Shown here piece after piece: positions 20,035 to 46,162 of a stretch of DNA of 64,000 nt. Both the position numbers and the translations under genes were made by a program. This stretch comes from Oscillospiraceae bacterium. GTDB lineage: Bacteria; Bacillota_A; Clostridia; Oscillospirales; Oscillospiraceae. Position 1 is the stretch's first letter, and every line of letters begins with the position of its first letter. The stretch is from assembly GCA_017459865.1 (NCBI GenBank), contig JAFUCD010000004.1:72907-136906 (forward strand), read 5' to 3'. Below the pieces are notes generated by a model. That model made no database searches. It was given only the letters and a program-made list of their open reading frames with translations, and was not told the DNA's origin.

Positions 20035-20049
20035 GGCAGAAGTCAATAT

Positions 20050-20125
<76 letters not shown>

Positions 20126-20129
20126 TGTC

Positions 20130-20168
20130 GAGTGAAGATAACGGATTTCGTTATCTTCACTCTTTTTT
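20130..20168 (+). terminator. Terminator after tRNA-fMet, overlapping the left boundary of the mobilizable element
   Basis: A 14-bp perfect stem GAGTGAAGATAACG (20130-20143) with CGTTATCTTCACTC (20149-20162), a GATTT loop and six T's. The right arm matches, in the same orientation, the sequences at 44885-44898 and 60611-60624 beside the other element boundaries (CGTTATCT, one variable base, CACTC), so it may also be half of an attachment site. Confidence 0.8.
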
Positions 20169-20203
20169 GTTGCAGCGGCAAGGTTTTTGCCTTGCTGCTT
20201 TTC

Positions 20204-21913
<1,710 letters not shown>

Positions 21914-27796: not shown

Positions 27797-29461
27797 ATGG
27801 AATACCCGAGGAAAGAATCTCTTACCGTAGAATTCAAAAGTGATCTGCGTGTGTATCCCTTGAACAAATTATATGAGGATCTTGTTGGATTGGCAAATAC
27901 GGATGGCGGCGTGCTGTTTCTCGGAATGGAAGATAACGGATCTCCTACCGGTGTGGATGTGCAGCACAAAAACTGTCAGGAGATGGAGGCTCGAATTCAG
28001 GATAACACGATTCCGGCGCTGTTTGCGAAAGCAACTATTGTTCAGCTGGATGGCGTTGACGTTCTGATGCTTGAGGTTCCGATTTCAAGGCAGCTTATGA
28101 TGACATCTGAAGGAAAGTATCTCCGGCGCCGTTTGAAACGGGACGGAACCCCAGAGACGGTTGCTCTAAAACCGTATGAAATACTCCAGAGGCTGTCCTA
28201 TATTCAGGCAATTGATCCTTCGGCACAAGTAGTGGAAGACGTGGAGGCTGAGCGCGCGCTTAGTCCGCTGGAACGAGAGCGACTGCGCAATATGATTCGG
28301 ATTTACCACGGCGACGCATCTTTGCTGGAGCTTTCTGATGATGAATTGGACGGGGCGCTGGGATTCGTACGAGAGCGCGACGGAAAGAGATATCCCACGA
28401 TTGCCGGTCTTCTGATGATCGGAAATGAAACCTATATCCGGCAGTGCGTTCCCAGTCATGAGGTTTTATTTCAGGTTCTGGATGGCGTAAATGTTCTGTC
28501 AAATCCGCCGGCGATGCACGCCTCTCTGCTGCAGACATTTGAAAAGGTCGATCTTTTGTTTCAGTCACGGATAGTGGAACAGGAGCTTCAAATTGGCATG
28601 TTCCGCGTTCCGATTCCGAACTATGAAAAAGACGCCTTTCGCGAGGGCTTTGTAAACGCTTTGGTGCACAGAGACTATTTTCGCGTTGGCGCCGTTCAGG
28701 TGCAGCTTCAGCGTGACTCTCTCACGATCGCAAGTCCGGGCGGATTTATGGAGGGCATCACATCCGAAAACATTCTGACGGCAGCCCCAACGCCCCGCAA
28801 TGCGCTTTTGGCGGAAGCCGTAAAGCGAATCGGTCTTGCTGAGCGAACCGGGCGCGGAATTGATAAAATATATATTGCAATGCTGAGAAGCGGGCATGCG
28901 ATTCCTGATTTTTCTGCCTCGACGAACACATCTGTCGTTTTGAAGCTCAATAGTGCAGAGCTGGACGAAAACTATATTAAAATGATCGTTCTGGAAGAAG
29001 AGCGGCTGCAGAAGGCCATGCCGGTTGATGCGCTGATTGTCCTTTCGGTCCTGAAAACAGAACGTCGCGCAACGCTCAAATTCCTTGCATCTAAGATTCA
29101 AAAGGATGTATCGGAAGCGAGAAGTGTTGTGGAGTGGTTGATCGAGCTCGGGATGATCGAAGGCGTTGGAAACGGCAGCGCTCGGCGATATATGCTCAGC
29201 TCAAAGGTATATTCCATTACAAATAATAAAGCCGGATATACCCGTCAGAGAGGATGGGATACGCTTCAGGAGCGGGAGCTGATCCTTGCTCACATGGACA
29301 AATATCATGAGATCGACCGTCAAGGTGTTGTCGAGCTTTGCAGATGTACGCCAAACCATGCATCCTGGCTGCTGCGGCAACTAACAGCCTCCGGAGATTT
29401 GGAGCTTGTTGGAAGCGGCAGGTTTGCAAAGTATGTTTTAGCAAACAAAGATCATCTCTAA
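27797..29461 (+). CDS. AlbA_2/Schlafen-type putative transcriptional regulator with GHKL-like ATPase segment
   Basis: 554 residues. The N-terminal AlbA_2 domain (about 5-125) has SLTVEFKSDLR and DLVGLANTDGGVLFLGMEDNG. A GHKL-like ATP-binding region (about 270-390) reads EGFVNALVHRDYFRVGAVQVQ, then ASPGGFMEG and GRGIDKIY. C-terminal winged-helix modules make up residues 400-554. Proteins of this architecture often stand beside restriction-modification and BREX loci, where some act as regulators; here that role is inferred. AGGAGG precedes the ATG. Tandem TTAGAGATA repeats flank the gene on both sides, suggesting that it controls itself and the helicase gene downstream. Confidence 0.8.
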   Translation: MEYPRKESLTVEFKSDLRVYPLNKLYEDLVGLANTDGGVLFLGMEDNGSPTGVDVQHKNCQEMEARIQDNTIPALFAKATIVQLDGVDVLMLEVPISRQLMMTSEGKYLRRRLKRDGTPETVALKPYEILQRLSYIQAIDPSAQVVEDVEAERALSPLERERLRNMIRIYHGDASLLELSDDELDGALGFVRERDGKRYPTIAGLLMIGNETYIRQCVPSHEVLFQVLDGVNVLSNPPAMHASLLQTFEKVDLLFQSRIVEQELQIGMFRVPIPNYEKDAFREGFVNALVHRDYFRVGAVQVQLQRDSLTIASPGGFMEGITSENILTAAPTPRNALLAEAVKRIGLAERTGRGIDKIYIAMLRSGHAIPDFSASTNTSVVLKLNSAELDENYIKMIVLEEERLQKAMPVDALIVLSVLKTERRATLKFLASKIQKDVSEARSVVEWLIELGMIEGVGNGSARRYMLSSKVYSITNNKAGYTRQRGWDTLQERELILAHMDKYHEIDRQGVVELCRCTPNHASWLLRQLTASGDLELVGSGRFAKYVLANKDHL

Positions 29462-29467
29462 GTTCAA

Positions 29468-29508
29468 TTAAGAGTAACTTAGAGATACTTAGAGAAAGTT
29501 AGAGATAA
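29468..29508 (+). promoter_or_regulatory. Four tandem 10-bp repeats directly before the SNF2 helicase start
   Basis: Units begin at 29468 (TTAAGAGTAAC), 29479 (TTAGAGATAC), 29489 (TTAGAGAAAG) and 29499 (TTAGAGATAA), ending two bases before the ATG at 29511. A further inverted copy (ATCTCTAA) lies in the last codons of the preceding gene. There is no good ribosome site, so binding here, at DNA or RNA level, could control translation as well. Confidence 0.75.
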
Positions 29509-29510
29509 TC

Positions 29511-32336
29511 ATGATAACGAAGTATCACGCCAAATATTATGCGACCGTTTTGTCGAACCAAGCCATCGGCGGGCAGATCGACAGTTTGTCGCAGTCGCTC
29601 TTGAATGCCGCTGTGGATATCAATCCGCACCAGATCGAGGCAGCGCTGTTTGCGTTTCAGTCTCCGCTGTCCAAGGGCGTCATTTTTGCAGATGAGGTCG
29701 GTCTTGGCAAGACGATTGAAGCAGGTCTTGTTCTCTGCCAGTATTGGGCAGTCGGAAAGAGAAAGATCATCGTGATCTGTCCCGCTTCGATCCGGAAACA
29801 GTGGGGATATGAGCTCACAGAAAAGTTTGGTATCGAAAACGAAGTGCTGGATGCCAGAAACTACCGGGATTATGAGCGGCGGGGCTTGGACCCGCTTGAT
29901 CAAAAAAAGGTTGTGATCTGCTCCTATAACTTTGCCGCACGCAAAAAGGATGAGATCAAGCGGCATGGGTTTGACTTTGCCATCATCGATGAAGCGCATA
30001 AGCTGAGAAATGTTTATAAAAAGAAGGCAAAAACAGCACAGGCGATCAAAGAAGCGCTCTCCGATGTGAAAAAGCTGCTTTTGACAGCCACACCGTTTCA
30101 GAATTCCCTCATGGAGCTGTTCGGGCTCACCAGTGTTGTGGATGACAACATCTTTGGCGACGCGCGCTCCTTCCGTGCGGAGTATGTGTATGATGAGAAT
30201 CTGTCGGACCTTCGGCAGCGGCTTTTGCCCTATTATAAGCGCACACTGCGCCGGGATGTGAGGGAATACATCAACTACACGAATCGCCTTCCGATCACGC
30301 AGCAGTTTGACGCCACGGATCTGGAATCGAAGCTGTACGAGGATGTTTCCGAATTTCTGCGCCGAGAGGACATTTATTCTGTCCCCAAGCGTCAGCGTAT
30401 GCTGACTACGATGATCATCCGGAAAATACTGGCGTCGTCTACCTATGCGCTCATCGGAACGCTGAGGACGGTGAAAGCCCGCCTGGAGCAGATGCTGAAC
30501 AATGAGGCTGTTCGGCAGCTCACACTGGCAGATTACATGGATGAGGACGAAGCGGAGCTATATGAGGAGGATGACGACGAGGAAAACCTGCTGGAAGACG
30601 AAAAGATCGATCTCGATAAGCTCCGGGAAGAGATCCATACCATAGAGGGATTTATCGAAACTGCGCTGAAGATCCAGCATGATTCCAAGTCGGAAGCACT
30701 TTTGCAGGCGCTTGACCAGTCGTTCCAAATGCTGCCAAAGACCGGTGCGAAGCAAAAAGCCCTCATTTTCACCGAATCCACGCGGACGCAGCAGTATCTG
30801 AAGGATTATTTGAATCAGCATGGTTACGCAGGAAAGATCGTAACCTTCAACGGCTCCAACAACGATCCCGATTCCAACGCGATCTATGATGCCTGGTTGT
30901 CCGAGAATGCTTATAACGGCAAGGCGAGCGGCATCAAGGCAGCGGATAAACGCGTCGCATTGGTGGAGCATTTCCGGGATGAAGCGGAAATCATGATCGC
31001 CACGGAAGCGGCGGCGGAGGGCCTGAATCTGCAGTTCTGCTCTTTGGTGGTCAACTATGATCTGCCGTGGAACCCGCAGCGAATCGAGCAGCGCATCGGC
31101 CGCTGCCACAGATACGGTCAGAAATGTGACGTTGTGGTCGTCAATTTCGTGAACCGGCGCAATTATGCGGATGTCCGAGTTTATAACCTGCTGCTCGACA
31201 AATTCCATCTGTTCGATGATGTGTTTGGGGCATCTGACGACGTGCTGGGCCAGGCGGACGCAATAGACTTTGAAAAGCGCATCTGGGAGATCTATCAGGA
31301 ATGCCGCACGGAAGCCGAGATCAACGCAGCGTTTGAAAAGCTCCAGCAGGATCTGCAGGACCAGATCAACGAGAAGATGAAGGATGTGCGCGAGCAGGTT
31401 CTCGAGCACTTTGATATCGGTGTTCAGGAGCGGCTGAAGCTTGCCAAAAGCGAGACCGGCGCGTTCCTGAATCGGTACGAGCACATCTTTTGGGAGTTGA
31501 CCAAGTATATTCTCGGAAAAGATGCAGAGTTTGACGATGAAACGCATGCCTTCCGCCTGCTGCGGCCGATTGTTGGGTGCAGAACCGGAAAGTATGAACT
31601 CCTGTCCTGCGTGACGGATGGGATTCCGTATCGCCTTTCGCATCCGCTGGCGCAGTATGTTCTGCAGACGGCCTTGTCGCTGCAGACTGAGGACGGCGCT
31701 GTTACCTTCCGTGAGAACGATCTGGCGCTGAAGGTGACGCTGCCGGATTATCTGAAAAACCAGTCCGGCTATCTGGTCCTTTCCCATTTGGCGGTCTCTG
31801 CCTTTGACGATGAACAGTATTGCCTCTTTACCGCTTTTACAAAGGACGGGAGATTCCTCACGCAGGAGGATTGTGAAAAGCTGTTCCTCTGCGGCGGTGC
31901 GGAGACGGTGCTTCGGGAGATTTCGCCGGAAGTCCGCCGGAAGCTGGGCGTCAATTCCGTACAGCACACCAAGAGCAAGCTGCAGCAGATCGACAGCCGC
32001 AATCTGGAATACTTCCGCGATGAGGAAGAGCGCATTTTCCGCTGGGAAAAAGATCTGATCGAGAGCATCGAGCGTGAGTTGGATATCGTAAAGCGCGCGA
32101 TTCGGGAGCAGGAGCGGCTGTCCCGCAGCGCAGCAAATATGGAGGAAAAGCTCGCCATCACAAAGAAGATCGATGAGCTGGAACGGCAGAAGCGCAAGAA
32201 ACGCAATGAGCTTGCTGACCGCGAGGACGAGGTCAGCGCGCAGCGCCGACGCATGATCGAGGAGCTTGATCGCCGAAAGGTTCAGAAAACCGCAACGGAT
32301 GACATTTTCGTCATTGCCTGGAATGTCGTTTCATAA
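29511..32336 (+). CDS. SNF2-family helicase of a putative defence operon
   Basis: 941 residues. The SF2/SNF2 core has Walker A in IFADEVGLGKTIEAGLVL (Lys68), DEAH in FAIIDEAHKLRN, TATPFQNSLMELFGL, and the C-terminal helicase motifs ATEAAAEGLNLQFC and QRIGRCHRYGQK. An acidic insertion (about 345-365, runs of E and D) lies between the lobes. A long C-terminal extension ends in a coiled coil (about 860-930) rich in R, E and K. Helicases like this one are found with DISARM (DrmD) and with type III-like Mod/Res genes. Here it precedes an HTH-Mod-Res cluster, and it probably translocates on or remodels foreign DNA. Confidence 0.9.
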   Translation: MITKYHAKYYATVLSNQAIGGQIDSLSQSLLNAAVDINPHQIEAALFAFQSPLSKGVIFADEVGLGKTIEAGLVLCQYWAVGKRKIIVICPASIRKQWGYELTEKFGIENEVLDARNYRDYERRGLDPLDQKKVVICSYNFAARKKDEIKRHGFDFAIIDEAHKLRNVYKKKAKTAQAIKEALSDVKKLLLTATPFQNSLMELFGLTSVVDDNIFGDARSFRAEYVYDENLSDLRQRLLPYYKRTLRRDVREYINYTNRLPITQQFDATDLESKLYEDVSEFLRREDIYSVPKRQRMLTTMIIRKILASSTYALIGTLRTVKARLEQMLNNEAVRQLTLADYMDEDEAELYEEDDDEENLLEDEKIDLDKLREEIHTIEGFIETALKIQHDSKSEALLQALDQSFQMLPKTGAKQKALIFTESTRTQQYLKDYLNQHGYAGKIVTFNGSNNDPDSNAIYDAWLSENAYNGKASGIKAADKRVALVEHFRDEAEIMIATEAAAEGLNLQFCSLVVNYDLPWNPQRIEQRIGRCHRYGQKCDVVVVNFVNRRNYADVRVYNLLLDKFHLFDDVFGASDDVLGQADAIDFEKRIWEIYQECRTEAEINAAFEKLQQDLQDQINEKMKDVREQVLEHFDIGVQERLKLAKSETGAFLNRYEHIFWELTKYILGKDAEFDDETHAFRLLRPIVGCRTGKYELLSCVTDGIPYRLSHPLAQYVLQTALSLQTEDGAVTFRENDLALKVTLPDYLKNQSGYLVLSHLAVSAFDDEQYCLFTAFTKDGRFLTQEDCEKLFLCGGAETVLREISPEVRRKLGVNSVQHTKSKLQQIDSRNLEYFRDEEERIFRWEKDLIESIERELDIVKRAIREQERLSRSAANMEEKLAITKKIDELERQKRKKRNELADREDEVSAQRRRMIEELDRRKVQKTATDDIFVIAWNVVS

Positions 32337-32350
32337 CTGAACAAAATGAA

Positions 32351-32379
32351 AAAGAGCGCCATTTTCGGCGCTCTTTTTT
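32351..32379 (+). terminator. Terminator after the SNF2 helicase gene
   Basis: AAAGAGCGCC (32351-32360) and GGCGCTCTTT (32367-32376), loop ATTTTC, then more T's. It separates the regulator-helicase transcript from the HTH-Mod-Res transcript. Confidence 0.85.
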
Positions 32380-32403
32380 CATGTTTGGCTTGCGTCACAA
32401 CGG

Positions 32404-32433
32404 TTAGTATGTTAGTATGTAAACATACATACT
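32404..32433 (+). promoter_or_regulatory. Operator-like repeats upstream of the HTH gene
   Basis: A direct repeat TTAGTATG-TTAGTATG (32404-32419) overlaps the palindrome AGTATGT-AAACAT-ACATACT (32414-32433). It is immediately upstream of GGAGGAGG and the HTH gene, as expected for an autoregulated repressor. Confidence 0.65.
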
Positions 32434-32452
32434 TTTTGGAGGAGGTGAGAGA

Positions 32453-32788
32453 ATGTCAAATGAAAAAGAAGCCTTCGGCGCATTGCTTCGGAGGCTGATA
32501 AAAGATGCTGGTATCACGCAGAGTGAGTTTTATGAGCGCGCGGAGATCACGAAACCATATTTTTATGACATTCTTCGGGGCAACCCGCCTCCGCCATATT
32601 TACAAAAACTGTTCATGGAAATTTTGAAAGCGCCGCATCAGGATGTCCTTACGTTTTATGATTTAGCGGCGCATATACGAGAAGAGCTTCCGGCAGACGT
32701 GCAGTTGGCAGTGAAGGAACACACTTCTCTGATCCCGCAATTTCGTGCTTTGATTGAACATACAGAACAGGAGAAACACCATGAATGA
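32453..32788 (+). CDS. XRE-like HTH regulator of the Mod/Res operon
   Basis: 111 residues. Residues 8-60 form a helix-turn-helix domain (LLRRLIKDAGITQSEFYERAEITKPYFYDIL). The C-terminal half is helical and acidic. Such controller-like proteins often time the expression of modification and restriction genes. It is preceded by GGAGGAGG and a palindrome that it could bind, and overlaps the Mod start by 8 bp, so all three genes are one transcript. A related layout in other genomes places a DUF4391 gene in this slot; this protein is not DUF4391. Confidence 0.8.
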   Translation: MSNEKEAFGALLRRLIKDAGITQSEFYERAEITKPYFYDILRGNPPPPYLQKLFMEILKAPHQDVLTFYDLAAHIREELPADVQLAVKEHTSLIPQFRALIEHTEQEKHHE

Positions 32789-35700
32789 GAGAATGAAGCG
32801 ATTCACCGATCTGATGCGTCAGATCTTCGAGCTGGATAAATCCGATCTGGATTTCGGAATTTACCGCATCATGAACATCCGCAAAGCGGAGATCGAGCGG
32901 TTTCTGACGGAAGGTCTGCCGGAGAAGGTGCATGATACGCTTGCTCCGTTCGCGCAGGGGGATCAGGACGAGATCAAAGCCCGCATGGCGCAAATAGAGC
33001 AAGCTTTGGGTGACGTATCAGCCATTCCTGATGCAGTCCCCATGAAGGCGGAATATCTGCAATTGCAGAAGCAGCTCGCTGAGGGTACGGATCTTGCCGC
33101 GTTGGAGACGGACGTCTATTCTGCGCTGTATTCCTTCTTCAACCGGTACTATGAAGAGGGCGATTTCATCTCCAAGCGCCGCTATAAGGAGGGCGTCTAT
33201 GCCATTCCGTATGAGGGCGAGGAAGTAAAGCTCTATTGGGCGAATCAGGATCAGTATTACATCAAGACCAGCGAAAACTTCAAGGACTATACTTTCCTCG
33301 TCGGGGATTATACCGTTCACTTCCGGCTGGTGGACGCCACGACCGAGCAGAACAACAACAAGGAGCAGGCGGACAGCAAGCGCGTCTTCATGCTCTTTAC
33401 GGAGGATGAGGAGAATTATCCCGGCATCCGGACCTTCGAATACAACGATGAGACGAAAGAGCTGATCATCCGTTTTGTTTTCGATATTCCGGAGGATAAG
33501 AAGCGGAAGTATTTCGATGAGAACTACGCAGCGATCCGCAGCTTCGTCTTTGATAATCATCTCCCCATGTGGCAGGAGCTGCTTGCGCCGATCGCGACTG
33601 GGAAGGGCAAGGAGACGACAGACCTGCTGCAGAAGCATCTGAAAGGCTACGTTGCCAAGAACACCTTTGACTATTTCATTCATAAGGATCTTCGCGGCTT
33701 TCTGTCCCGGGAGCTGGATTTCTATATCAAGAGTGAGATCATGCATCTGGATGATCTGGATACCGGGAACGAAGCGCGCGTGGAGACGTATCTCGCCAAG
33801 ATCCGCGCGGTGAAGCGCGTCGGCAAGATCATCATCGATTTCCTCGCGCAGATCGAGGATTTCCAGAAAAAGCTCTGGCTGAAAAAGAAATTTGTCGTCG
33901 AGACGAACTGGTGCATGACGCTCGACCGCGTGGATGAATCCTTCTGGCAGGAGATCATTGAGAATCGGGCACAGATCGAAGAATGGATCGCCATGTACGC
34001 CATCGATGAGGTGGAGCCCGCCATTGGAGTGGAAGGCTGGACCGATCCGCCCAGCATGGAATTCCTGCGCCAGAATCAGAATCTGCTGATCGATACAAAG
34101 CATTTCAGCGATGATTTCAAGATGAGGTTGGTAGCGACAATCGATCATTTGGATGAACAGACCAGCGGGTTGATGATAGATTCCGACAATTATCAAGCGC
34201 TCAAACTTTTATATGATAAGTATTATAAGTGGTTCAATAATGTTCACATTGATCCTCCGTATAATACGGACACGAGCGGCTTTTTGTATAAAAACAACTA
34301 TCGTCATTCCAGTTGGGCGAGCATGATGCTTGACAGACTAATTCTTGCGGATCAGATGCTTGAGGACGAAGAAGGCTCTTTACAATGCCATATTGATGAA
34401 AATGAATATGAGCTATTGTTTAATATTTTTAGTCAAATCCCAAGGCAGAACGCGGGTACAATAATATGGGATAAGCTCAATCCAATGCTAGGTCGCAAAG
34501 GAGTAGCAACCCAGCATGAGTATGTTGTATTTCGATCAAATTTTGACAAATCTATTTATGCAAGAAACGACAACATTGATAGAATTTTTGCCTATGAAGA
34601 AGCCGCTATAGCACACCATAACGGGATTAATGAGGAGAGCAGGAAAGAATTTGCTTCTATGCTCAACAAAGATGAAAAGCTTTCAGGAGGAGATAGAGCA
34701 TATCATTTCATTGACGACGATGGAAATGTATTTCGTCTTGTGGCAATGGGTGCACCAGAAAAGCGAACAGATCCCAAATATTTCATTCCGTTGATTCATC
34801 CTGTAACAGGAAAGCCTTGCCCAGTGCCTTCAAATGGGTGGTCGAGAAAACCTGAAACGATGGAGCAAATGATTAAAGATGAAACTATCGTTTTTGGAAA
34901 AGACGAGAGCACACAGCCGCAAAAGAAAGTAATTTTGTCTCGTGCTGGGGAGAGGCAAATATCGTCAGTATTAGAGAATGGTAAAAGCGGAAAAGCGGAC
35001 TTGGATAAATTGGGATTTGATTTTCCGTATGCTCATCCAGTTTCTTTATATGAAACTTTAATATCAGCCAATCACGGAACTCATATTTTAGATTTCTTTG
35101 CAGGATCTGGTACAACCGGACATGCAGCAATCAATTTAACCCGAGGGGATGGCAAAAGTAGAAAGTATTGTCTTGTAGAAATGGGAGAATACTTTGATAA
35201 AGTTACTAGACCCCGCATGCAAAAAGTTGTTTATGCTGCCGACTGGAAAGATGGCAAGCCTCAGAATCGCAATACCGGAGTTTCCCAAATCATCAAGTAT
35301 ATGCGTCTGGAAAGCTATGAAGATGCCCTCTCCAACATAAGTCTCAACGATGACGTTTCTCACGGCATGGTCAGCCTGTTCGATGAGGAGTATCTCATCC
35401 ACTACATGCTGGATCTGGAGAGCCGGGACAGCCTGCTGGACATGGAGGCGTTCTGCGAGCCCTTCTCCTATCAGATGAAGATCACCGAGAAAAACGAATG
35501 CAAGACACGCCCGGTCGATCTGGTGGAGACGTTCAACTATCTCATCGGCCTGACCGTGGTGCGTCAGGGAGCCGCTTCGTATTTTGCCGCGAAGCCGTCC
35601 GAGGAGGCTGCCTATGAGGGCGCCGTCGATCTGGTGAAAGATTTTGGAGGGGAATATGCGTTCCGGCAGATCGAAGGCACGCTCCCGGATGGCAAACGCG

Positions 35701-35921
35701 CGCTCGTGATCTGGCGCACCGTGACGGATGACGTTCTGAAAAGCAATGCCGCGCTGGATGCCTATTTCACCAAGTACCGCATCAATCCCGCCGACCGCGA
35801 ATACGATGTGATCTTTGTCAACGGCGACAGCAATCTGGAAAATCTCCGTACTGCCAATGAGAGCTGGAAGGTTCAGATGACCGAAATCGAATTCAAGCGG
35901 CGCATGTTCGAGGAGGCGTGA
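32781..35921 (+). CDS. Type III-like DNA adenine methyltransferase (Mod)
   Basis: 1,046 residues. Motif IV is in NNVHIDPPYNTDTSG (about residue 490) and motif I in ILDFFAGSGTTGHAA (about 772), the beta-class order of type III Mod proteins, with the target recognition region between them. The long N-terminal 480 residues and the C-terminal 220 residues are not catalytic and probably contact Res. The start at 32781 gives MNERMKRFTDLMRQ, overlapping the HTH stop. The segment from about 34170 to 35260, from motif IV through the recognition region to past motif I, is visibly AT-richer than the rest of the gene, suggesting replacement of the specificity core by recombination. Confidence 0.92.
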   Translation: MNERMKRFTDLMRQIFELDKSDLDFGIYRIMNIRKAEIERFLTEGLPEKVHDTLAPFAQGDQDEIKARMAQIEQALGDVSAIPDAVPMKAEYLQLQKQLAEGTDLAALETDVYSALYSFFNRYYEEGDFISKRRYKEGVYAIPYEGEEVKLYWANQDQYYIKTSENFKDYTFLVGDYTVHFRLVDATTEQNNNKEQADSKRVFMLFTEDEENYPGIRTFEYNDETKELIIRFVFDIPEDKKRKYFDENYAAIRSFVFDNHLPMWQELLAPIATGKGKETTDLLQKHLKGYVAKNTFDYFIHKDLRGFLSRELDFYIKSEIMHLDDLDTGNEARVETYLAKIRAVKRVGKIIIDFLAQIEDFQKKLWLKKKFVVETNWCMTLDRVDESFWQEIIENRAQIEEWIAMYAIDEVEPAIGVEGWTDPPSMEFLRQNQNLLIDTKHFSDDFKMRLVATIDHLDEQTSGLMIDSDNYQALKLLYDKYYKWFNNVHIDPPYNTDTSGFLYKNNYRHSSWASMMLDRLILADQMLEDEEGSLQCHIDENEYELLFNIFSQIPRQNAGTIIWDKLNPMLGRKGVATQHEYVVFRSNFDKSIYARNDNIDRIFAYEEAAIAHHNGINEESRKEFASMLNKDEKLSGGDRAYHFIDDDGNVFRLVAMGAPEKRTDPKYFIPLIHPVTGKPCPVPSNGWSRKPETMEQMIKDETIVFGKDESTQPQKKVILSRAGERQISSVLENGKSGKADLDKLGFDFPYAHPVSLYETLISANHGTHILDFFAGSGTTGHAAINLTRGDGKSRKYCLVEMGEYFDKVTRPRMQKVVYAADWKDGKPQNRNTGVSQIIKYMRLESYEDALSNISLNDDVSHGMVSLFDEEYLIHYMLDLESRDSLLDMEAFCEPFSYQMKITEKNECKTRPVDLVETFNYLIGLTVVRQGAASYFAAKPSEEAAYEGAVDLVKDFGGEYAFRQIEGTLPDGKRALVIWRTVTDDVLKSNAALDAYFTKYRINPADREYDVIFVNGDSNLENLRTANESWKVQMTEIEFKRRMFEEA

Positions 35922-35923
35922 GC

Positions 35924-38900
35924 ATGGCAAGACGACAAACCACGCCTGAAGTCCCGTTTGACGATCAGCTGATCCTGTTTCGCTATTTCCTGCGGGAGCT
36001 GGGAATCCATTCCCTTTCCGATCTCGGGAGAAAGCTGAACACGACGGAATACGAGGGCGTCAACGAGAGCGGGAACACCTGGTTTTATGAATATCTCGCG
36101 CAGATTGCCCGCAGAAACGGCGGCAATGTGAGCGCCGATCGGCTGCGGCTGTATGATGAGAACATTTGCCGCCACACGAAGCAGATCGGCGAAAAGCGCG
36201 GGAAGCTGCAGTGGAAATACTTTCAGTATCTCTCGCTGCTCTTTACGGAGATCTATCTGGATCGCTATTTCTCCGACAGAGACGGTTTCTGCAAAGACCT
36301 GAATGCGTTTCTGGCGGAAGTCAGCACGGACTCCCTCGGCCTGATCCAGTTTGAGCCCTATACGCCGGAGAAGATGAACAAGCTGGCGTTCATGTGCGCG
36401 ACCGGCAGCGGCAAGACGCTGATCATGCATGTGAACATTCTCCAGTTTCTGCATTACTTCCGCAGAGCAAAGCGGCTGAACAGCAGGCTTTCGATCAATA
36501 AGATCATCGTGCTGGCGCCGAACGAGGGCATGAGCAAGCAGCATCTGGAGGAACTGAAGCTGTCCTCGATCCCCGCCGCCATGTTCGACAAGGACAGCGG
36601 ATTCACCGTGCAGCGGGAAGACGTCCTCGTGATCGACATGAACAAGCTCAAGGAAGAGGGCAAGGTCAAAACGGTCTCGGTCGACAGCTTTGAACAGAAC
36701 AATCTGGTGCTGGTGGACGAAGGGCATCGCGGCCTCTCCGGGAACGTGTGGTACGATTATCGCACCAGACTTTCCGCCGACGGGTTTTCCTTCGAGTATT
36801 CTGCGACGTTCAAGCAGGCGCTGAATGCCAACGCCCGCGGCAGCACCGCCAAGGCGAAGGAAGAGCGGGCACTGATGGAGGAATACGGGAAATCCATCCT
36901 CATGGATTATTCCTACAAGTATTTCTACGAGGACGGATACGGCAAGGATTACCGGATCTACAATCTCAGAAGCAGCATTGACGATGAACAGCGATTGCTG
37001 TATCTGACAGGATGCCTTTTGTCCTTCTATCAGCAGATGAAGCTGTACCGCACCGCAGGCGCCTCGCTCCGAGACTTTCACATTGAGCAGCCGCTGCTGG
37101 TATTCGTCGGCAATCGCGTGACGTCCACGACTTCAAAGGATGAACTGACGGATGTTGAAGAAGTGCTGCGGTTTCTGGATCAGTTTGTGCGAAACAGAGG
37201 GAAGTCAACAGGTCGGATCGCGGATGTATTGAACAATGAAACTGGTTTGGTGGATGAAAACAGCGACGATCTGTTCTATGGGGATTTCTATGCCCTGCAG
37301 CATATTTTTGGCTTAACTCCGGACGCAAATGTGGTGTTCGATGATATCCTTCGCTTGGTGTTCAATACGGATACCGGCGCGGAGGAGCCGCGGCTGCATC
37401 TGGCAAACATCAAGCAGGTTCCGGGCGAGATCGGGCTGAAGATCGGAGAATATGGAGATTATTTCGGCGTGATCAGCATCGGCGATACCGCAGGCTTGAT
37501 CAAGCTGTGCGATCAGCAGGGGATTCCGTCAAAAACAGAAGAATTTATTTCCGCCTCGATGTTCCGTTCGATCAACAGTAAGGATTCCAGAATCAATCTG
37601 CTGATCGGCTCCCGGAAGTTCACCGAAGGTTGGAACAGTTGGCGTGTCTCTACGATGGGGCTGATCAACTTCGCCAAGGGCGAGGGCTCGCAGGCCATTC
37701 AACTGTTTGGTCGCGGTGTGCGTCTGAAGGGATATCAGGGCTGCCTGAAGCGATCCCGCAAGCTGGAAGACCGAAGCGCGGCCGTGCCGAAGGATCTTGA
37801 GATTTTGGAAACGCTCACGATTTTCGGCATCAAGGCGCAGTATATGGAGGACTTCAAAAAGTATCTGGAGCTGGAAGGCGCCCCGACCAACGAGAAGCCG
37901 CTGGAGTTTACGCTGCCTGTGATCAGCCGATACAAGGAGGTTGCAGACAAAAAGCTCCATGTGATCAAGGTCAAGGACGGCGTCAATTTCAAGAAGCAGT
38001 CGAAGCGGCTGGTTTTGACAGCGCCTGATGATGGGTTCCTGCGTTATCTGCTGCGCAGCAAGACGAAAATCGACTGCCGCAGCAAGATCCAAACGATCGA
38101 TTCCACGACCAGCATGAAGATGGAATCCGCCCCGGAGGAGCATACGCTGCCGGAGGAATGCCTGCCGTTTCTGGATTACGTGCGCATTTTCGAGGAGCTT
38201 GAGTTATATAAAAACGAGAAGTTTTATTATAATATCAGCATCGTGAAGGATGAGCTGATCGGAATCCTGAAGACAGAAGGATGGTATGCTCTGCTGATCC
38301 CTGCCAGCCATCTGAAGGTCAATTCTGTACCGAGACTGGAGGCGGCGACGGATTACGCGGTCATGGCGCTGAAGTCCTACATGGATAAATTCTACCGCTA
38401 TGAAAAAGCGCGTTGGGAAGCGCCGTGGCTGGAATATGCGGTGCTGGACGCCTCCGATAACAATTTTGTAGATGAATACTCGATCAAGTATGATCGGCAG
38501 GGTGACTTCGATCACACCGGCGAGGAGCTTGGAGCCTTCATCTCTGAAATCAGCGCGATCCTAACTGAGCAGCAGGGAATAGACGGCTACGAAAAGCGCT
38601 TTAAGGATCGGCTGGTGCTGTTCGATTTCCGATCCCATCTGTATGCGCCGCTACTCTGTCTTCAAAAGAGCGGATTGAAGATCCAGGTTTCGCCGGTCAG
38701 TCTGAACGAGGACGAAAAGAAGTTCGTGGATCTGCTCAAAGCCTATGTTGACGGCGAACCGGCGCTGCTTTCCGGGAAGACGCTGTATCTGCTCCGGAAT
38801 AAGAGCAAGGTGGGTATGGGATTCTTCGAGGCTGGCAATTTCTACCCGGACTATATTCTCTGGATCGATGACGGCGATACGCAGTATATCTCTTTTGTAG

Positions 38901-39163
38901 ATCCGAAGGGCCTGCTGCAGGTTTCTCATGACGACCCGAAGATCGAGTTTTACAAGACGATCAAGGATCTGGAAGCACGTCTCGCTCCGACGGCGCAGGA
39001 TAAGCGAATCGTACTGAATTCGTTCATCATGTCCGGCACAAGCGGCGTGCTGCTGAGCGACCGATGGAACATGGAAAAACCGGCGCGGGAAGCAAAGAAC
39101 GTATACACACTGGATAACCCCGAATGTGTGCAGGCAATGATCGAAAAGATCCTGCAGGCATGA
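35924..39163 (+). CDS. Type III-like restriction subunit (Res), DEAD-type helicase-nuclease
   Basis: 1,079 residues. SF2 helicase: Walker A in FMCATGSGKTLIMHV (about residue 159), DEGH box in LVLVDEGHRGLSGN (about 264), motif VI region QLFGRGVRLKGYQG. Near the C-terminus is a PD-(D/E)xK nuclease signature: YPDYILW (about 977), then SFVDPKG (about 991). AGGAGG at 35911-35916 favours the ATG at 35924 over a GTG at 35918. It should cut DNA after translocation when paired with Mod. A strong hairpin terminates the operon just past the stop. Confidence 0.92.
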   Translation: MARRQTTPEVPFDDQLILFRYFLRELGIHSLSDLGRKLNTTEYEGVNESGNTWFYEYLAQIARRNGGNVSADRLRLYDENICRHTKQIGEKRGKLQWKYFQYLSLLFTEIYLDRYFSDRDGFCKDLNAFLAEVSTDSLGLIQFEPYTPEKMNKLAFMCATGSGKTLIMHVNILQFLHYFRRAKRLNSRLSINKIIVLAPNEGMSKQHLEELKLSSIPAAMFDKDSGFTVQREDVLVIDMNKLKEEGKVKTVSVDSFEQNNLVLVDEGHRGLSGNVWYDYRTRLSADGFSFEYSATFKQALNANARGSTAKAKEERALMEEYGKSILMDYSYKYFYEDGYGKDYRIYNLRSSIDDEQRLLYLTGCLLSFYQQMKLYRTAGASLRDFHIEQPLLVFVGNRVTSTTSKDELTDVEEVLRFLDQFVRNRGKSTGRIADVLNNETGLVDENSDDLFYGDFYALQHIFGLTPDANVVFDDILRLVFNTDTGAEEPRLHLANIKQVPGEIGLKIGEYGDYFGVISIGDTAGLIKLCDQQGIPSKTEEFISASMFRSINSKDSRINLLIGSRKFTEGWNSWRVSTMGLINFAKGEGSQAIQLFGRGVRLKGYQGCLKRSRKLEDRSAAVPKDLEILETLTIFGIKAQYMEDFKKYLELEGAPTNEKPLEFTLPVISRYKEVADKKLHVIKVKDGVNFKKQSKRLVLTAPDDGFLRYLLRSKTKIDCRSKIQTIDSTTSMKMESAPEEHTLPEECLPFLDYVRIFEELELYKNEKFYYNISIVKDELIGILKTEGWYALLIPASHLKVNSVPRLEAATDYAVMALKSYMDKFYRYEKARWEAPWLEYAVLDASDNNFVDEYSIKYDRQGDFDHTGEELGAFISEISAILTEQQGIDGYEKRFKDRLVLFDFRSHLYAPLLCLQKSGLKIQVSPVSLNEDEKKFVDLLKAYVDGEPALLSGKTLYLLRNKSKVGMGFFEAGNFYPDYILWIDDGDTQYISFVDPKGLLQVSHDDPKIEFYKTIKDLEARLAPTAQDKRIVLNSFIMSGTSGVLLSDRWNMEKPAREAKNVYTLDNPECVQAMIEKILQA

Positions 39164-40200: not shown

Positions 40201-40527
40201 ATGAGTAAATACACAGACGATGAGATCCGTGCCATGAAAAAGATCACATGCAAAATTGCGGCGGACTATCTTGGGATCGCTCCGATGTCCGTCAGCATCG
40301 GTATGCAGCAGAACCTGCTTCCGATCGGTTTTGCCATTCATCATGAGGACCGGTATTCAGACAGTTGGTCATACAACATCATCGCGGAGCGGTTGATTGC
40401 CTACAATCACGGCACCATCAACGAGGTGCAGGTGGAGGGGATCGAGCGCAATCTGGAGCGGATCATAAGTGAATTTTCGGAAATGAAGAAGGATCTGAGT
40501 TTTTTATTGCGCGCCAAGCAAGATTGA
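40201..40527 (+). CDS. Small element protein, possible DNA-binding/excisionase-like
   Basis: 108 residues. The first half (DDEIRAMKKITCKIAADYLGIAPMSVSIGMQQNLLPIGFAI) resembles the helix-turn pattern of excisionase-type MerR-like proteins found in clostridial elements. The second half is a helical, charged region. AAGGAGG precedes the ATG. It lies about 190 bp downstream of the candidate attenuator RNA. A role in excision or gene control is possible but not shown. Confidence 0.6.
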   Translation: MSKYTDDEIRAMKKITCKIAADYLGIAPMSVSIGMQQNLLPIGFAIHHEDRYSDSWSYNIIAERLIAYNHGTINEVQVEGIERNLERIISEFSEMKKDLSFLLRAKQD

Positions 40528-40634
40528 AAGAGGTGAAAGCGGCACGAAAACAGCGAGAACAGATTCAGGAAAGAGCAGAAGCGCAGGCTGCATTTTATTA
40601 TGACGCATTGAGATATAAGGTGGGAGGTGAGTCT

Positions 40635-42236
40635 ATGGAAAAGAAAACGATTTCTTTTCAGCGGGAACAGCTGTATCAGGAAATCTGGGAGATTTCGCTC
40701 TCCAAAGTCGCAAAAAAATATGACGTTCCGTACGCAAAGCTGAAGGACGCCTGTGTGCAGGCAAATATCCCACTACCATCCCTGTCGTATTGGGGAAATC
40801 TCCAGTGCGGGAAAGAGGTGAGCAAAACGCCTCTGCCGCCATCGGATCAGCAGGAGATTTCCGTAACATTCTCTTATCGCGTGAATACGAATGCGTTGGG
40901 TGCGCTTCTGGAGAAAGAATCAGAAAAGGCAGCATCCCCGGAGCCGGAAAAGAGTTCGGATCCGCCACAAAAAACAGAGCGGGCACCAATAACGGCAACC
41001 CCTGCAGGAAACAAAAATTTGTATGATAGGGAAACACTTTATCAGGAAGTTTGGGAACAGCCTGTCACAAAAGTCGCTGCGAAATACGGAGTGTCGGATG
41101 TCATGATCCGCAAGGTGTGCATTGCGCTAAATGTTCCGCTGCCGCCTCGCGGTTACTGGGCAAAAAAGCAGGCAGGGCAGAAGCTGGAGAAAACACCGCT
41201 TCCGGTTACAGCAGACAGGACAGAGATTGCAGGCAGGCGGACGAATCAGCAGACGGAACCGGCTCCCGCTGAGAGCATGATGGACAGGCTTGCATTTCTT
41301 CCGGATGAGGAACGCAGTCGTTTGCTTCAGACGGCGCTGGCGCTGCAAGCGTCACCGGATGTCAAAAAATTACACCCGATCCTCCAACAGCATAAAGCAG
41401 CATTTCACGCATGGGGAAAGCAGCACCCACGAGATCCGTATGCGGACTGGAAACGGAATTCCTATAGCCCGAAGCCTAAGGATGAGCCTCCTCTTTGGGA
41501 ATGCGTCTCAGAGGAGACGCTTCCGAGAGTGTATGGCATTCTTGATCCGCTCTATCGTGCGGTCGAACGATTGGGCGGAAGCATTCAAAAGGACCTCACC
41601 ATGATAATACGCGGCGAGCAGGTTGCGCTTGGTATCTCAGAGGGCAGAGACAAAACCGCGCATGTTCTGACAAAAAGCGAACAGAAGGAACTGGAGCAGT
41701 ATGAGCGTGACAAGCTGAGACGCTCCTACGTTTGGGAGCCAAAATTCCGAAAGTACGACTATATTCCAAACGGGAAGCTCCGCATCTCTGCATATGGTGA
41801 CAGCTTTTTCCGGGATACCAACACATCGGGCGTGGAAGAGCGCATCGGGGAGATCCTGCTGGCGCTCTATATGGAATCTGAGCGCGTGCGCATCGAACGA
41901 GAGAAGCGGGAGGAAACCCAGCGCAAAGCGAAAGAGGAAAGGCGGCAAAAAGAACTCCGCCGCCAGCGGTATAATGACGAAATTGACCGCTTGGATGCAC
42001 TGCTCAACGAGGCGTCTGACTTTCAAATAGCCTGCAAAATCCGCGCGTATGTTGCTTCGGTTGCGTCAAAATCGGATTTGAGCGATGCTGAGAAGGAATG
42101 GATTGCATGGGCAACGGCGAAGGCAGACTGGTATGATCCGACCGTTGCGGCCGTTGATCCTGTGTTTGGGAAGCGAGACCATGGGGAAAGCACTGAGCAA
42201 AAGAGACCGACCAAGAGAGGCCACTACTACTGGTAA
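40635..42236 (+). CDS. Hypothetical protein with a duplicated HTH-like module
   Basis: 533 residues. Two copies of a 55-60-residue module are visible. Copy 1 (about residues 8-68) is FQREQLYQEIWEISLSKVAK and on to IPLPSLSYWGNLQCGK. Copy 2 (about 143-203) is YDRETLYQEVWEQPVTKVAA and on to VPLPPRGYWAKKQAGQ. Each ends in a K-TPLP motif, and each looks like a DNA-binding HTH followed by a YWA/N clamp. The C-terminal part is helical and very charged (about 410-450), with a conserved-looking LPRVYGILDPLYRAVERLGG segment. The start at 40635 is fixed by GGGAGGTGA; a TTG at 40524 is less likely. I recognise the module as recurrent in bacteria but know no function. Confidence 0.65.
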   Translation: MEKKTISFQREQLYQEIWEISLSKVAKKYDVPYAKLKDACVQANIPLPSLSYWGNLQCGKEVSKTPLPPSDQQEISVTFSYRVNTNALGALLEKESEKAASPEPEKSSDPPQKTERAPITATPAGNKNLYDRETLYQEVWEQPVTKVAAKYGVSDVMIRKVCIALNVPLPPRGYWAKKQAGQKLEKTPLPVTADRTEIAGRRTNQQTEPAPAESMMDRLAFLPDEERSRLLQTALALQASPDVKKLHPILQQHKAAFHAWGKQHPRDPYADWKRNSYSPKPKDEPPLWECVSEETLPRVYGILDPLYRAVERLGGSIQKDLTMIIRGEQVALGISEGRDKTAHVLTKSEQKELEQYERDKLRRSYVWEPKFRKYDYIPNGKLRISAYGDSFFRDTNTSGVEERIGEILLALYMESERVRIEREKREETQRKAKEERRQKELRRQRYNDEIDRLDALLNEASDFQIACKIRAYVASVASKSDLSDAEKEWIAWATAKADWYDPTVAAVDPVFGKRDHGESTEQKRPTKRGHYYW

Positions 42237-42919: not shown

Positions 42920-42948
42920 TTGAAAATAGAGATATGTAGATGTAGAAT
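42920..42948 (+). promoter_or_regulatory. Promoter of the retron RNA
   Basis: A -35 TTGAAA (42920-42925), 17 bases, and a -10 TAGAAT (42943-42948). The predicted start, about 7 bases on, falls at 42955, the first base of the a1 arm. Confidence 0.75.
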
Positions 42949-42954
42949 ATTATC

Positions 42955-43118
42955 GGAAATAGAGGGGTTGTTTTTCGTTAGCGTTACGCAACGTTTGTTT
43001 CAAAGGCCAGAACAATGTTCCGCCTTTTGCCCTTTCAAAGACCTTCCAAGCGAGCGGTCTTTTACTATTTGACGGTTAAGCTTCAAATGCGTCAGAAGGT
43101 TGAGCCCCTCTATTTCTT
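42955..43118 (+). ncRNA. Retron msr-msd RNA (predicted)
   Basis: a1 GAAATAGAGGGG (42956-42967) is the exact reverse complement of a2 CCCCTCTATTTC (43105-43116), closing about 160 bases. The msr part has two short hairpins: CGTT-a-GCG-TTA-CGC-AACG (42976-42993) and AAAGGC...GAAC-AAT-GTTC...GCCTTT (43002-43027). The msd part has AAAGACC/GGTCTTT (43037-43062) and TGACG/CGTCA (43070-43094), with an alternative long-range ACCTTC/GAAGGT pairing (43041-43046 with 43095-43100). The position just before the RT gene and the promoter at a1 match known retrons. Confidence 0.8.
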
Positions 43119-43132
43119 TTCTGAGGTGAAAT

Positions 43133-44833
43133 ATGGAAAGCAAAGAAATCAAGACCAAATTTTTTCAACTCAAAACACGCACCGATGTCGCGGACATTCT
43201 TGGAATTGATGAAAGAAGCTTGCGGTTCTTTCTTTTCAAGGTTCGTCCAGAGAATATGTATATTCGCTTTCAAATTGCTAAACGCGGTGGAGGGTTCCGA
43301 GAAATCTGTGCGCCAAACCGAAAACTTAAATCGATACAGCGAAAACTAGCAGATATATTAGAGATCGTTTATCGAGAAAAAGCGTGCGCGTATGGTTTTG
43401 TTAGAGGAAAGAATATCGTTCAAAATGCGAGGAACCATACAAAAAGCGAGTTAGTTTTGAACATAGATCTCAAAGACTTCTTCTCACAAATTCATTTTGG
43501 CCGTGTGCGAGGAATGCTAATAAAGCCGCCGTATGGGCTAGGAGAAGAAGCTGCGACAACTATTGCACAAATTGCTTGCCTTGATGGAAAGTTGCCTCAA
43601 GGTGCCCCTTGCTCGCCTGTTATTACAAATATGATTTGTGCATCTTTAGATAACCAACTAATGAGGTTAGCAAAAAAGACAGGGTGTATTTATACGCGAT
43701 ATGCCGATGACATCACTTTTTCTACAAATAAAAAGCAGTTTGATGATGAAATTATATTCTTAAATGGGGGTTCATTGGAACTAGGGAAAGGTCTTTCAAA
43801 TGTTTTGACAAAAAACAGCTTTATCGTCAATCCTGATAAAATAACGCTCAGAGCAAAAAGCTCACGGCAAGAAGTAACAGGTCTAGTTGTCAATCAGTTC
43901 CCTAATTTGAGAAGAGAATATGTGAAACAGCTCCGGGCAATTATATACAATTGCTCTAAAAATGGGGTGTATCATACAGCGCAACAGTATATAGAAAAGG
44001 GCTTTTGTAATAATACGAAGATAGCTACAGTAGTGCATGACCCAAATCATAGAGAAGAAGTTGAAAATTGGTTTCGGCAAGTTATTGTTGGAAAGATAAA
44101 CTATATCCGTCAAATAAAAGGCGCTGGTCATGCAACATATAAAAGCTTTGCTTTGAGGTACAATCGTCTCGTTGGAGAGGACTTTTTCGAAGTGCCGCAA
44201 GACGACCTTTTGGCAGAATTGATGAGATCTGTTTATGTTTTGGAGAGCGAAGAAAGGCAGGGGAGTGGATTTGCGGTAAAAGGAATCGGACTGTTCACTT
44301 CCAACCATGTTACAGGCGATGGAGCTAAATATGAAGTATTTCTTCCTGACGGGCAAGGCGACGTCGAAATAAAGGGTATTATTTCAAATGGAGATAATTT
44401 GATTGATTCGGATGATACGATCGACTTTGCTCTCTTTGATGTACCCTTTGCCAATGAAAGCAATCTGGAGATAGGCGATAGCGACGAAGTAAAATTCGGC
44501 TCAGATGTTATTATTGCATCGTTTCCTGACTATGCAAAAGGTAATTCTGTGCGCATTGAACACAGAACAGTGGCGGGAGAAGCGCGGCTTTTTGGCTCAA
44601 AAATTATTATTATTGATGGTGTAATTTTCCACGGTGCAAGTGGTGGCGTTGTAGTAAACGACAAAAACAAAGTGATAGGAATTGTTAAAGCAGGAATTCA
44701 GGATGCGGTTTCAAAAGACGAATTGCTTTCAAACCAGCGACATGGTTTCGTTCCAATTAATTTAGTAATGCAGCATATTAGGGAGCATCAACGGCCGGCT
44801 TCCGAAGAAAACCATCAAGAGACAATGACATAA
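43133..44833 (+). CDS. Retron reverse transcriptase fused to a trypsin-like serine protease
   Basis: 566 residues. The RT domain covers about 1-310, with the retron region X motif NARNH (98-102), IDLKDFF (Asp112), QGAPCSPVITN, the catalytic YADD (190-193), and the region Y VTG triplet (248-250) that separates retron RTs from group II intron RTs. After a linker (about 320-370) comes a protease domain with an apparent triad: His392 (TSNHVTG), Asp431 (TIDFALF) and Ser503 (FHGASGGVVV). The RT should make msDNA from the adjoining RNA, and the protease is probably the toxic effector released on phage infection. The gene is much more AT-rich than its neighbours. A fused protease is one of the rarer retron effector types. 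Confidence 0.9.
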   Translation: MESKEIKTKFFQLKTRTDVADILGIDERSLRFFLFKVRPENMYIRFQIAKRGGGFREICAPNRKLKSIQRKLADILEIVYREKACAYGFVRGKNIVQNARNHTKSELVLNIDLKDFFSQIHFGRVRGMLIKPPYGLGEEAATTIAQIACLDGKLPQGAPCSPVITNMICASLDNQLMRLAKKTGCIYTRYADDITFSTNKKQFDDEIIFLNGGSLELGKGLSNVLTKNSFIVNPDKITLRAKSSRQEVTGLVVNQFPNLRREYVKQLRAIIYNCSKNGVYHTAQQYIEKGFCNNTKIATVVHDPNHREEVENWFRQVIVGKINYIRQIKGAGHATYKSFALRYNRLVGEDFFEVPQDDLLAELMRSVYVLESEERQGSGFAVKGIGLFTSNHVTGDGAKYEVFLPDGQGDVEIKGIISNGDNLIDSDDTIDFALFDVPFANESNLEIGDSDEVKFGSDVIIASFPDYAKGNSVRIEHRTVAGEARLFGSKIIIIDGVIFHGASGGVVVNDKNKVIGIVKAGIQDAVSKDELLSNQRHGFVPINLVMQHIREHQRPASEENHQETMT

Positions 44834-44855
44834 AGGCTGCACGTTATGGTTTGAA

Positions 44856-44905
44856 GAACCTGTTCGTTGCCTATAAACCAAATCCGTTATCTACACTCGT
44901 ACCAG
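44856..44905 (+). other. Right-boundary sequence of element 1 (attachment-like)
   Basis: CCTGTTC at the left, then ACCAAATCCGTTATCT (44877-44892) and CACTCG, about three-quarters identical over nearly 60 bp to 60590-60645 beside element 2. CGTTATCT-N-CACTC also occurs at 20149-20162 at the left end of element 1. It lies between the retron stop and a terminator and is the best candidate for an att site or a shared target sequence. Confidence 0.55.
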
Positions 44906-44907
44906 TA

Positions 44908-44942
44908 AAAACCCCTGAAATCTCGAAGATTTCAGGGGTTTT
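44908..44942. terminator. Strong bidirectional terminator at the element/chromosome junction
   Basis: AAAACCCCTGAAATC (44908-44922) and its exact complement (44928-44942) with a TCGAA loop, giving T-runs on both strands. On the minus strand it ends the CoA ligase transcript. Confidence 0.85.
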
Positions 44943-44986
44943 ATTATATCTGTTGATTTGGGGAGTCCTGGGATTCGGATACGATT

Positions 44987-46162
44987 TCATGTGATGCTGC
45001 GCTTTCCGGCGATCAATGGACGATCCTCCGGTTGTACCGGGCGGAGCGACCAAGCGGCTGCGAGATCCGGGAGCGCAGAGGGCGCTTCACCGCAGGTGAG
45101 CACCTCCAGATGCAGGCCGTCCGGGCGCTGCTCGGCGCGGTAATCCGCGACCCACGGCAGGGAGAACATCGTGTTTTCCAGTCTCAGGAACGCCTCCGCG
45201 TCGAGGCGCGAGACCGTGTCCAGCCGCCGGATCTCGCTCCCGCAGGGGCAGGGGCCCGGCAAGATGCGAGCCCGATCGCCGGTGCGGTAACGGATCATCG
45301 GCATGACCTCCATGCCGATCGTGGTGATGACGAGCTCGCCCCATTCGCCCTCCGGGAGCGGCGCGCCGTCGGAAGACACAATCTCCGCGATCACGTGGTT
45401 TTCCCGCAGATGCATGCCCGCGTGCGCCGGGCAGGTGATTGCCCCGCCGAGCGCCATCTCCCGCGAGCCGTAGTGCGGAAAGAGCGCGGAGCCGAGCAGC
45501 GCCTCCGCGCCGCGCACCACCGCTTCGGGGCAGGCGTCGCCGCTCACGAGCGCGCGGCGGAGACTCCCTCTGCCGCAGACCCGCAGCAGGCTCAAAAGCG
45601 GCACCGGCATGCCCACAAACGTGTCCGGTCGCTCCTGCTCCAGGATCTCAGCAAGCTCAGCATAGCTATTCCCGACGCCGACGCGCAGCGGCTTTGCCTC
45701 GAGACGCTCAATGGCCTCCGCGATCAGCTCACCGAGCCCGTTCGGGCCGGAGAAGGGGAAGCAGATCATCGTGACGCTGCCGGGGAAGATCAGCTCGCCC
45801 AGCCCCGCCGTGAACAGCTGCACCGCGCGCTCCAGATCACCAGCGGTGTAAAACAGCCGCTTGGCGGCTCCGGTGGTGCCGCTGGTGCGCTCGGTGATCA
45901 CACGCTCCACCGCGCTCTGGGAGAGCAGCAGCATACTGCTTCCGTGTTCTGCAAGATCTTCTGCAGTCGTGAACGGCAGCGCCTTCAGATCGTCCAGAGA
46001 ACGCAAAGACGCCGGCAGGTCTCGGTAGAACCCCTGCCGGTCGTATTCTTTTTTCAATAGCGCGTTGAGCTTTCTCAGCTGCATGGCCTCGATCTCCTGT
46101 CGGGAGGTCGAGGCCATGGCTTCCTGCTTACGAATCAGCGCGTCCAGCCGCGTGATGGTCAT
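44987..46162 (-). CDS. AMP-dependent CoA ligase-like protein (DVU_1553 family)
   Basis: 391 residues. The adenylate-forming motif is TSGTTGAAKRLFYT, followed by FPFSGPNGLGELI, LFPHYGSREMALGG and MIRYRTGDRARILPGPCPCGS. It resembles phenylacetate-CoA ligase but is shorter and in the DVU_1553-like group found with molybdopterin aldehyde oxidoreductases. Its acyl substrate is unknown; it may activate a carboxylate made by the oxidoreductase, or act in cofactor assembly. It is the last gene of the minus-strand operon, and its start overlaps the upstream stop (ATGA). Confidence 0.8.
   Translation of the reverse strand: MTITRLDALIRKQEAMASTSRQEIEAMQLRKLNALLKKEYDRQGFYRDLPASLRSLDDLKALPFTTAEDLAEHGSSMLLLSQSAVERVITERTSGTTGAAKRLFYTAGDLERAVQLFTAGLGELIFPGSVTMICFPFSGPNGLGELIAEAIERLEAKPLRVGVGNSYAELAEILEQERPDTFVGMPVPLLSLLRVCGRGSLRRALVSGDACPEAVVRGAEALLGSALFPHYGSREMALGGAITCPAHAGMHLRENHVIAEIVSSDGAPLPEGEWGELVITTIGMEVMPMIRYRTGDRARILPGPCPCGSEIRRLDTVSRLDAEAFLRLENTMFSLPWVADYRAEQRPDGLHLEVLTCGEAPSALPDLAAAWSLRPVQPEDRPLIAGKRSIT

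Follow-up and report, generated by a model that had tools for sequence, protein, structure and literature searches.

An intact reverse transcriptase–protease fusion gene with an upstream msr-msd RNA, a type XI retron by sequence, in an Oscillospiraceae contig

The stretch of 64,000 nucleotides (nt) analysed here, hereafter the window, comes from an Oscillospiraceae bacterium and contains a gene that joins a reverse transcriptase (RT) to a trypsin-like protease, preceded on the same strand by a non-coding RNA with the layout of a retron RNA. A sequence-only reading of this DNA had described a complete retron at 42920..44833. The gene part of that feature stands, its start at 42920 lies ahead of the open reading frame (ORF), which begins at 43133, and the interval 42920-43132, left undescribed there, holds the retron RNA. 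The features of the locus, in window coordinates, are as follows.

42920..42948, +: promoter-like site TTGAAA-17-TAGAAT, ending 7 nt 5' of the RNA (10/12 matches; weak)
42956..43116, +: retron non-coding RNA (msr-msd), 161 nt from the outer end of a1 to that of a2 (repeats, shuffles, consensus fold, covariance model)
42956..42967, +: a1 repeat, a perfect 12-base-pair complement to a2 (inverted-repeat search)
42970, +: predicted branching guanosine, the G of TTG after a1 (alignment conservation, and position as for rG15 of retron Eco2 and in the Ec67-like retron L104)
42976..42993, +: msr RNA stem-loop CGTTAGCGTTACGCAACG (consensus fold, covariance model; one of six pairs changed on both sides)
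42999..43103, +: msd template region, approximate limits placed from the anatomy; the multicopy single-stranded DNA (msDNA) would read as the minus strand
43093..43103, +: conserved motif CAGAAGGTTGA directly before a2, probably the template start (alignments)
43105..43116, +: a2 repeat (inverted-repeat search)
43133..44833, +: RT-protease fusion gene (P0001, 566 amino acids (aa), retron type XI; ORF call, Pfam, PADLOC, protein database)
43274..43885, +: reverse transcriptase domain, residues 48-251, with YADD at 190-193 (Pfam RVT_1, E 1.2e-21; predicted fold)
44261..44683, +: trypsin-like (HtrA-like) protease domain, residues 377-517, with His392, Asp431 and Ser503 (Pfam Trypsin_2, E 4.1e-12; alignment; predicted fold)
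44908..44942, +: terminator-like hairpin of 16 pairs, 3' of the gene (two such sites against 2.3 expected, a count that is not significant)

Promoter-like sites are more numerous in the region than expected (10 found vs 5.2, sd 2.1). The fusion ORF starts with ATG and has no internal stop, and RVT_1 and Trypsin_2 lie in this single frame, in agreement with the sequence-only reading, whose residue numbers for the RT motifs and for the catalytic triad proved exact. The retron-kind motifs are NARNH (98-102, the NAxxH form of region X), YADD and VTG (248-250, region Y), with conservation measured in the alignment. The best PADLOC model is RT-Protease_XI, which matches residues 9-549 with 539.5 bits and is covered almost end to end, in line with the type number given in the earlier reading; the runners-up, RT-TIR_XII (402.3 bits, residues 7-348) and RT-Toprim_I-C (368.5 bits), match the RT part only. 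Type XII shares the single-gene fusion but has a TIR domain, not a protease. Type XI (PDLC02959/02960) likewise consists of one gene with the RT in the N-terminal and the trypsin-like protease in the C-terminal part, and the window protein does not differ from it in architecture; what sets the protein apart is Val497 and an identity of 45-54% to all but one of the listed relatives. With the gene intact and the msr-msd RNA located upstream, the locus is, as judged from its sequence, an intact, well-typed and complete retron, as first proposed.

A group II intron origin of the RT was considered and rejected. The closest solved protein by sequence is that of retron Ec67/Eco2 (E 6.8e-65, residues 14-282), compared with 2.1e-5 for a group II intron RT; the group II model TIGR04416 scores 50.9 bits against a cut-off of 300, and the fold comparison points the same way. 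The best NCBIfam model is retron_Ec67_fus, whose 350.7 bits fall under its cut-off of 450 because the effector differs. In a tree of 101 RT domains (93 of the 101 loci and eight of the 120 listed proteins; its bootstrap was not fully settled), the window RT groups with protease-fused retron RTs in a clade of 16 with support 100/100. Eight rows of this clade have a named origin, seven being Clostridia or Bacillota and one labelled Tenericutes. The protease label, carried by 41 of the 101 rows, needs seven changes on the tree, of which the starred branches force only one, and given the unsettled bootstrap the tree is compatible with one as well as with several acquisitions of the protease.

Of 8000 proteins scored in the protein database, 3961 reach E 1e-3 or better. 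Both Pfam domains occur in all 120 proteins among the matches listed; of the 119 relatives in this list, P0002 is 86% identical to the window protein and the others are 45-54% identical, P0001 itself standing for eight member sequences on four contigs. Phage records gave no DNA match, five of the 155 matching plasmid records cover at least 80% of the query at 32.0-33.1% identity, and at E 1e-80 the species-representative genomes yielded one match in 394 (one order) and one in 398 (one phylum), in each case the centre genome itself, so the fusion is rare among species representatives. Two of the 21 loci in viral-collection contigs (L081 and L098) are RT-protease fusions about 33% identical to that of the window.

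The protease domain has a chymotrypsin-type fold in the predicted model, and a His-Asp-Ser triad. The triad is identical in the 120 listed proteins and in 35 loci, 155 in all by alignment; since these loci (33 of 80 genome loci and two of 21 viral loci) were chosen because their match passes residue 500 within one open frame, the count shows retention where the domain is present rather than how often the domain occurs. Residue 497, six before the catalytic serine, is Arg in 106 of the 120 listed proteins, Lys in four and His in three, as opposed to the Val497 shared by the window protein and P0002. Among the nine near genome loci, five have Arg, three Thr and one Ser, and across all 35 loci no residue dominates. 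Residue 497 would correspond to position 189 of trypsin, which forms the floor of the S1 pocket; if this equivalence holds, most near relatives would be predicted to prefer an acidic P1 residue and the Val497 lineage a small or aliphatic one, which is the P1 preference of HtrA proteases. Arg478 of the window protein is likewise common to P0002, and is Cys in 113 of the 120 listed proteins. The likeness to the HtrA/Deg proteases has limits, as the window protein is fused to an RT and shows no PDZ domain among its Pfam matches, and the HtrA family model TIGR02037 reaches 30.6 bits, below its cut-off of 416.2.

The upstream RNA is more than a product of chance. Its elements follow in the order a1, TT, G42970, five T/U, the hairpin, a spacer, the msd, CAGAAGGTTGA and a2. 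The same order is read by eye in the Ec67-like plasmid retron L104, and the Eco2 RNA is described in PMC12405507 as a1/a2 repeats, the rG15 branch point, four single-stranded bases, an RNA hairpin, a single-stranded stretch and the template. Because the anatomy matches both, we infer a branch point at G42970, where the alignments hold a conserved G that would serve as primer, and a template start near 43103.

An upstream stem was sought in the window and in every protease-reaching locus for which the script had a usable start (33 of 35, the exceptions being L009 and L010), and 16 of these 34 sequences were shuffled 60 times each. In 12 of the 16 (the window, L001-L008, L025, L031 and L056, with L006 and L007 near copies), none of the 60 shuffles reaches the observed stem, whose sequence varies between loci with the pairing maintained. 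A consensus fold from ten of the 36 sequences formed by the window and the 35 loci (the window, L001-L006, L008, L009 and L056) contains 23 pairs, 15 of them with compensatory change, and in the outer stem 14 of 16 pairs are changed on both sides. Of the alignment cells, 92.0% pair; shuffles give 78.8%, and sliding the alignment leaves no more than 49.5%, although the comparison favours the unslid version since the structure was derived from the same alignment. Cells changed on both sides number 37 vs 11.1 in shuffles, and none of 500 shuffles is as high.

A covariance model built from eight of these ten sequences, window included, was run over 92 of 104 loci. In the 64-kilobase (kb) window, itself a building member, it gives a single match up to E 10 (42954-43118, 114.4 bits), and elsewhere it recovers L007, a near copy, along with the seven loci used to build it. 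Outside the building set it matches L009 (108.4 bits, E 2.6e-20) and L010 (30.1 bits, E 0.002), and, weakly, sites just 5' of the RT in L019, L034, L077, L078 and L054 (21.3-26.4 bits, E 0.012-0.15), where the match falls short of the protease. Three further matches with E above 1 were taken as chance. The RNAs of distant protease-fused loci were not detected by the model, and the exact 22-nt msr motif has no occurrence in the viral contigs. No Rfam family reaches its gathering score near the locus; two minus-strand Rfam matches below that score were likewise taken as chance. In a separate group of eleven alphaproteobacterial protease-fused retrons (L047, L048, L050, L051, L052, L053, L055, L058, L060, L061 and L072), which form their own clade with support 100/100, the span between the upstream stem arms is shorter (113-126 nt) and often ends at the start codon chosen by the script.

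We consider it probable, with moderate confidence, that the locus is a complete type XI retron whose protease is an effector gated by msDNA in the manner of Eco2. The RT would prime on the 2'-OH of G42970, as other retrons do, and copy about 90-100 nt of the msd into branched msDNA; the RT, msr RNA and msDNA would form an Eco2-like oligomer in which the protease occupies the place of the Eco2 Toprim nuclease and is held inactive. The assembly would be loosened by a phage product acting on the msDNA, whether by cutting, binding or modifying it. The released protease would then cleave at least one cytosolic protein of host or phage, and the cell would be sacrificed to halt the infection. In Eco2, according to PMC12405507, the RNA contributes to trimer assembly, occlusion of the Toprim effector by the msdDNA has been proposed, and phages that escape carry denB mutations; PMC13158370 describes the msDNA of Eco8, Ec86 and Ec83 as the latch of the effector. 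By analogy, the type XI protease should be inhibited by its own msDNA.

A more specific version of the msDNA-gated effector is clearly more tentative. The branched DNA-RNA made by the RT might lock the HtrA-like protease into an assembly, probably a trimer, that stays inactive until phage disturbance of the DNA frees a killing proteolysis. HtrA proteases are themselves trimers, so an Eco2-like trimer could hold an HtrA-type trimer that is already formed and either expose it or block it. Proteins of the Val497 lineage (the window protein and P0002) would cut at a P1 residue other than that of the Arg497 majority, so that close relatives may differ in substrate choice on one scaffold.

Several observations weigh against the proposed msDNA gating and the RNA anatomy that it builds on. 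Taken by itself, the RNA folds with a moderate z of -2.68 (two of 200 shuffles are as good), and the single-strand fold of the would-be msDNA (43000-43104) is not significant (z -1.59; matched by 12 of 200 shuffles). Conservation does not extend to the msd part, so its hairpins lack support from comparison. Among the shuffled loci, the stem of L081 is reached in one of 60 shuffles, and L022 (18/60), L027 (33/60) and L032 (29/60), all three distant, show no signal; in the consensus fold, further pair types are no more numerous than in shuffles (249 of 500). Up to E 10 the covariance model gives no match to the RNA of L104, the Ec67-like retron, so that the resemblance to the Eco2 RNA is one of layout and not of score. 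On the protein side, the pTM (predicted template modelling score) of 0.70 leaves the domain arrangement of the structure model loose, and the structural similarity of the model to Eco2 ends near residue 356. Eco2/Ec67 is a type I-C RT-Toprim fusion with an RNase as effector, unrelated to the protease of the window, and both the oligomer and its inhibition are carried over from it. Of the account as a whole, the gene, the fusion, the triad, the RNA and its covarying stem, and the predicted fold come from the analysis itself, while msDNA synthesis, the oligomer, its inhibition, the trigger, the substrate and the defence role are proposed.

What the protease would act on can be approached through the neighbouring genes, and here the comparison bears on an unlikely alternative, in which the locus is a true type XI retron and the protease an activator that cleaves a zymogen encoded elsewhere in the genome, the zymogen then killing the cell. 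PMC12799240 shows protease-activated pro-nucleases for Hachiman and AVAST and reports the gene pair also in Lamassu and DRT; in its accessible part, retrons are named only within a list of immune systems. As predicted here, Hachiman and AVAST combine a trypsin-like protease with anti-phage defence, but their protease acts on a pro-nuclease whose gene is paired with its own. We compared 383 ORFs of at least 70 aa (BLASTP, E 1e-6) from 34 loci, namely the window and the protease-reaching loci other than the near copies L007 and L072 (33 of 35; several contigs end early). Next to the fusion, no gene recurs in these loci as a dedicated partner or substrate; the widest-shared neighbour family occurs in four of 34, with a member in L002 that resembles a histidine kinase, and the second in three. 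The lack of a recurring neighbour speaks against a pro-enzyme encoded alongside the fusion, as is shown for AVAST and Hachiman (PMC12799240), and on the msDNA-gated reading the substrate should thus be a widespread protein or the fusion itself.

In another account, slightly less probable still, the protease acts within the complex and cleaves its own fusion, for example at the linker near residues 350-370, freeing a domain or stopping the RT, with the toxic step elsewhere. Protease and tether do lie in one chain, and the confidence of the structure model falls at residues 351-360 (block mean 75), but no conserved candidate site was identified and residues 355-366 are variable. That the retron is silent or in decay, and merely cargo of a mobilisable element, seems very improbable. 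The G+C content of the two kilobases of the retron (39.8 and 41.2%) is low relative to the element, mostly at 47-56%, which would fit a separate arrival, but another kilobase of the element (34001) is also low at 41.7%. Among seven genome relatives examined, L009 has a TAA inside the match and a shortened frame; L002 was also flagged, but its frame is open over 563 aa and the stop may be the gene's own end. The copy in the window, by contrast, has an uninterrupted frame with an ATG start, complete RT and protease motifs and an intact RNA, and a relative as close as P0002 exists. The msDNA-gated protease effector is the preferred reading.

The locus adds a member to a known retron class, type XI, for which the mechanism given here is a proposal. 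Protease-fused retron RTs are mentioned in print (PMC12405507), and a 2026 commentary states that retron effectors beyond NAD hydrolases and nucleases await characterisation (PMC13158370). Our searches of the open literature, several of whose result lists were covered in part, returned no experimental study of protease-fused retrons; for 'retron type XI' the sole match was 'retron type XIII', the whole-word 'type XI' being absent among the matches listed. As far as their text was accessible, the main text of PMC12548924 lacks the word 'protease', and PMC8934634 lacks 'protease' and has 'trypsin' once. The located RNA and the absence of experimental work on type XI from these searches raise the value of the locus above that of a plain annotation: with an RNA of about 160 nt, whose ends, hairpin and likely priming base are located, a 566-aa protein and a covariance model to find others, it offers a compact test case. 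Should the protease prove to be the effector, the protein that it cuts would reveal a new cellular weak point in abortive infection.

Judged from its gene content, the surrounding DNA (20126-44945) is probably a mobilisable element with several defence genes. The element begins beside a tRNA-Met (20050-20125), and the G+C content rises to 56.9-67.9% across the 15 kb from 45001 on; a comparison of 19951-20250 with 44701-45100, made for element ends or attachment sites, found no shared same-strand word of 11 nt or longer. One of its genes is the following.

20204-21913, -: serine recombinase with DUF4368

Further element genes encode ParB, a relaxase, a DUF5906/D5 primase-like protein and a sigma-like protein. 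A defence-like cassette at 27797-39163 comprises a Schlafen/AlbA_2 protein, a DrmD-like SNF2 helicase, an N6/N4 DNA methylase and a type III restriction subunit; the helicase is close to DISARM DrmD (678.6 bits, below the cut-off of 950), and the cassette is possibly a DISARM/type III hybrid. Between this cassette and the retron, an ORF at 40524-42236 (570 aa, TTG start), which has no match in Pfam, NCBIfam or PADLOC, carries a repeated motif (LYQEIWE..SKVAKKYDV and LYQEVWEQPVTKVAAKYGV).
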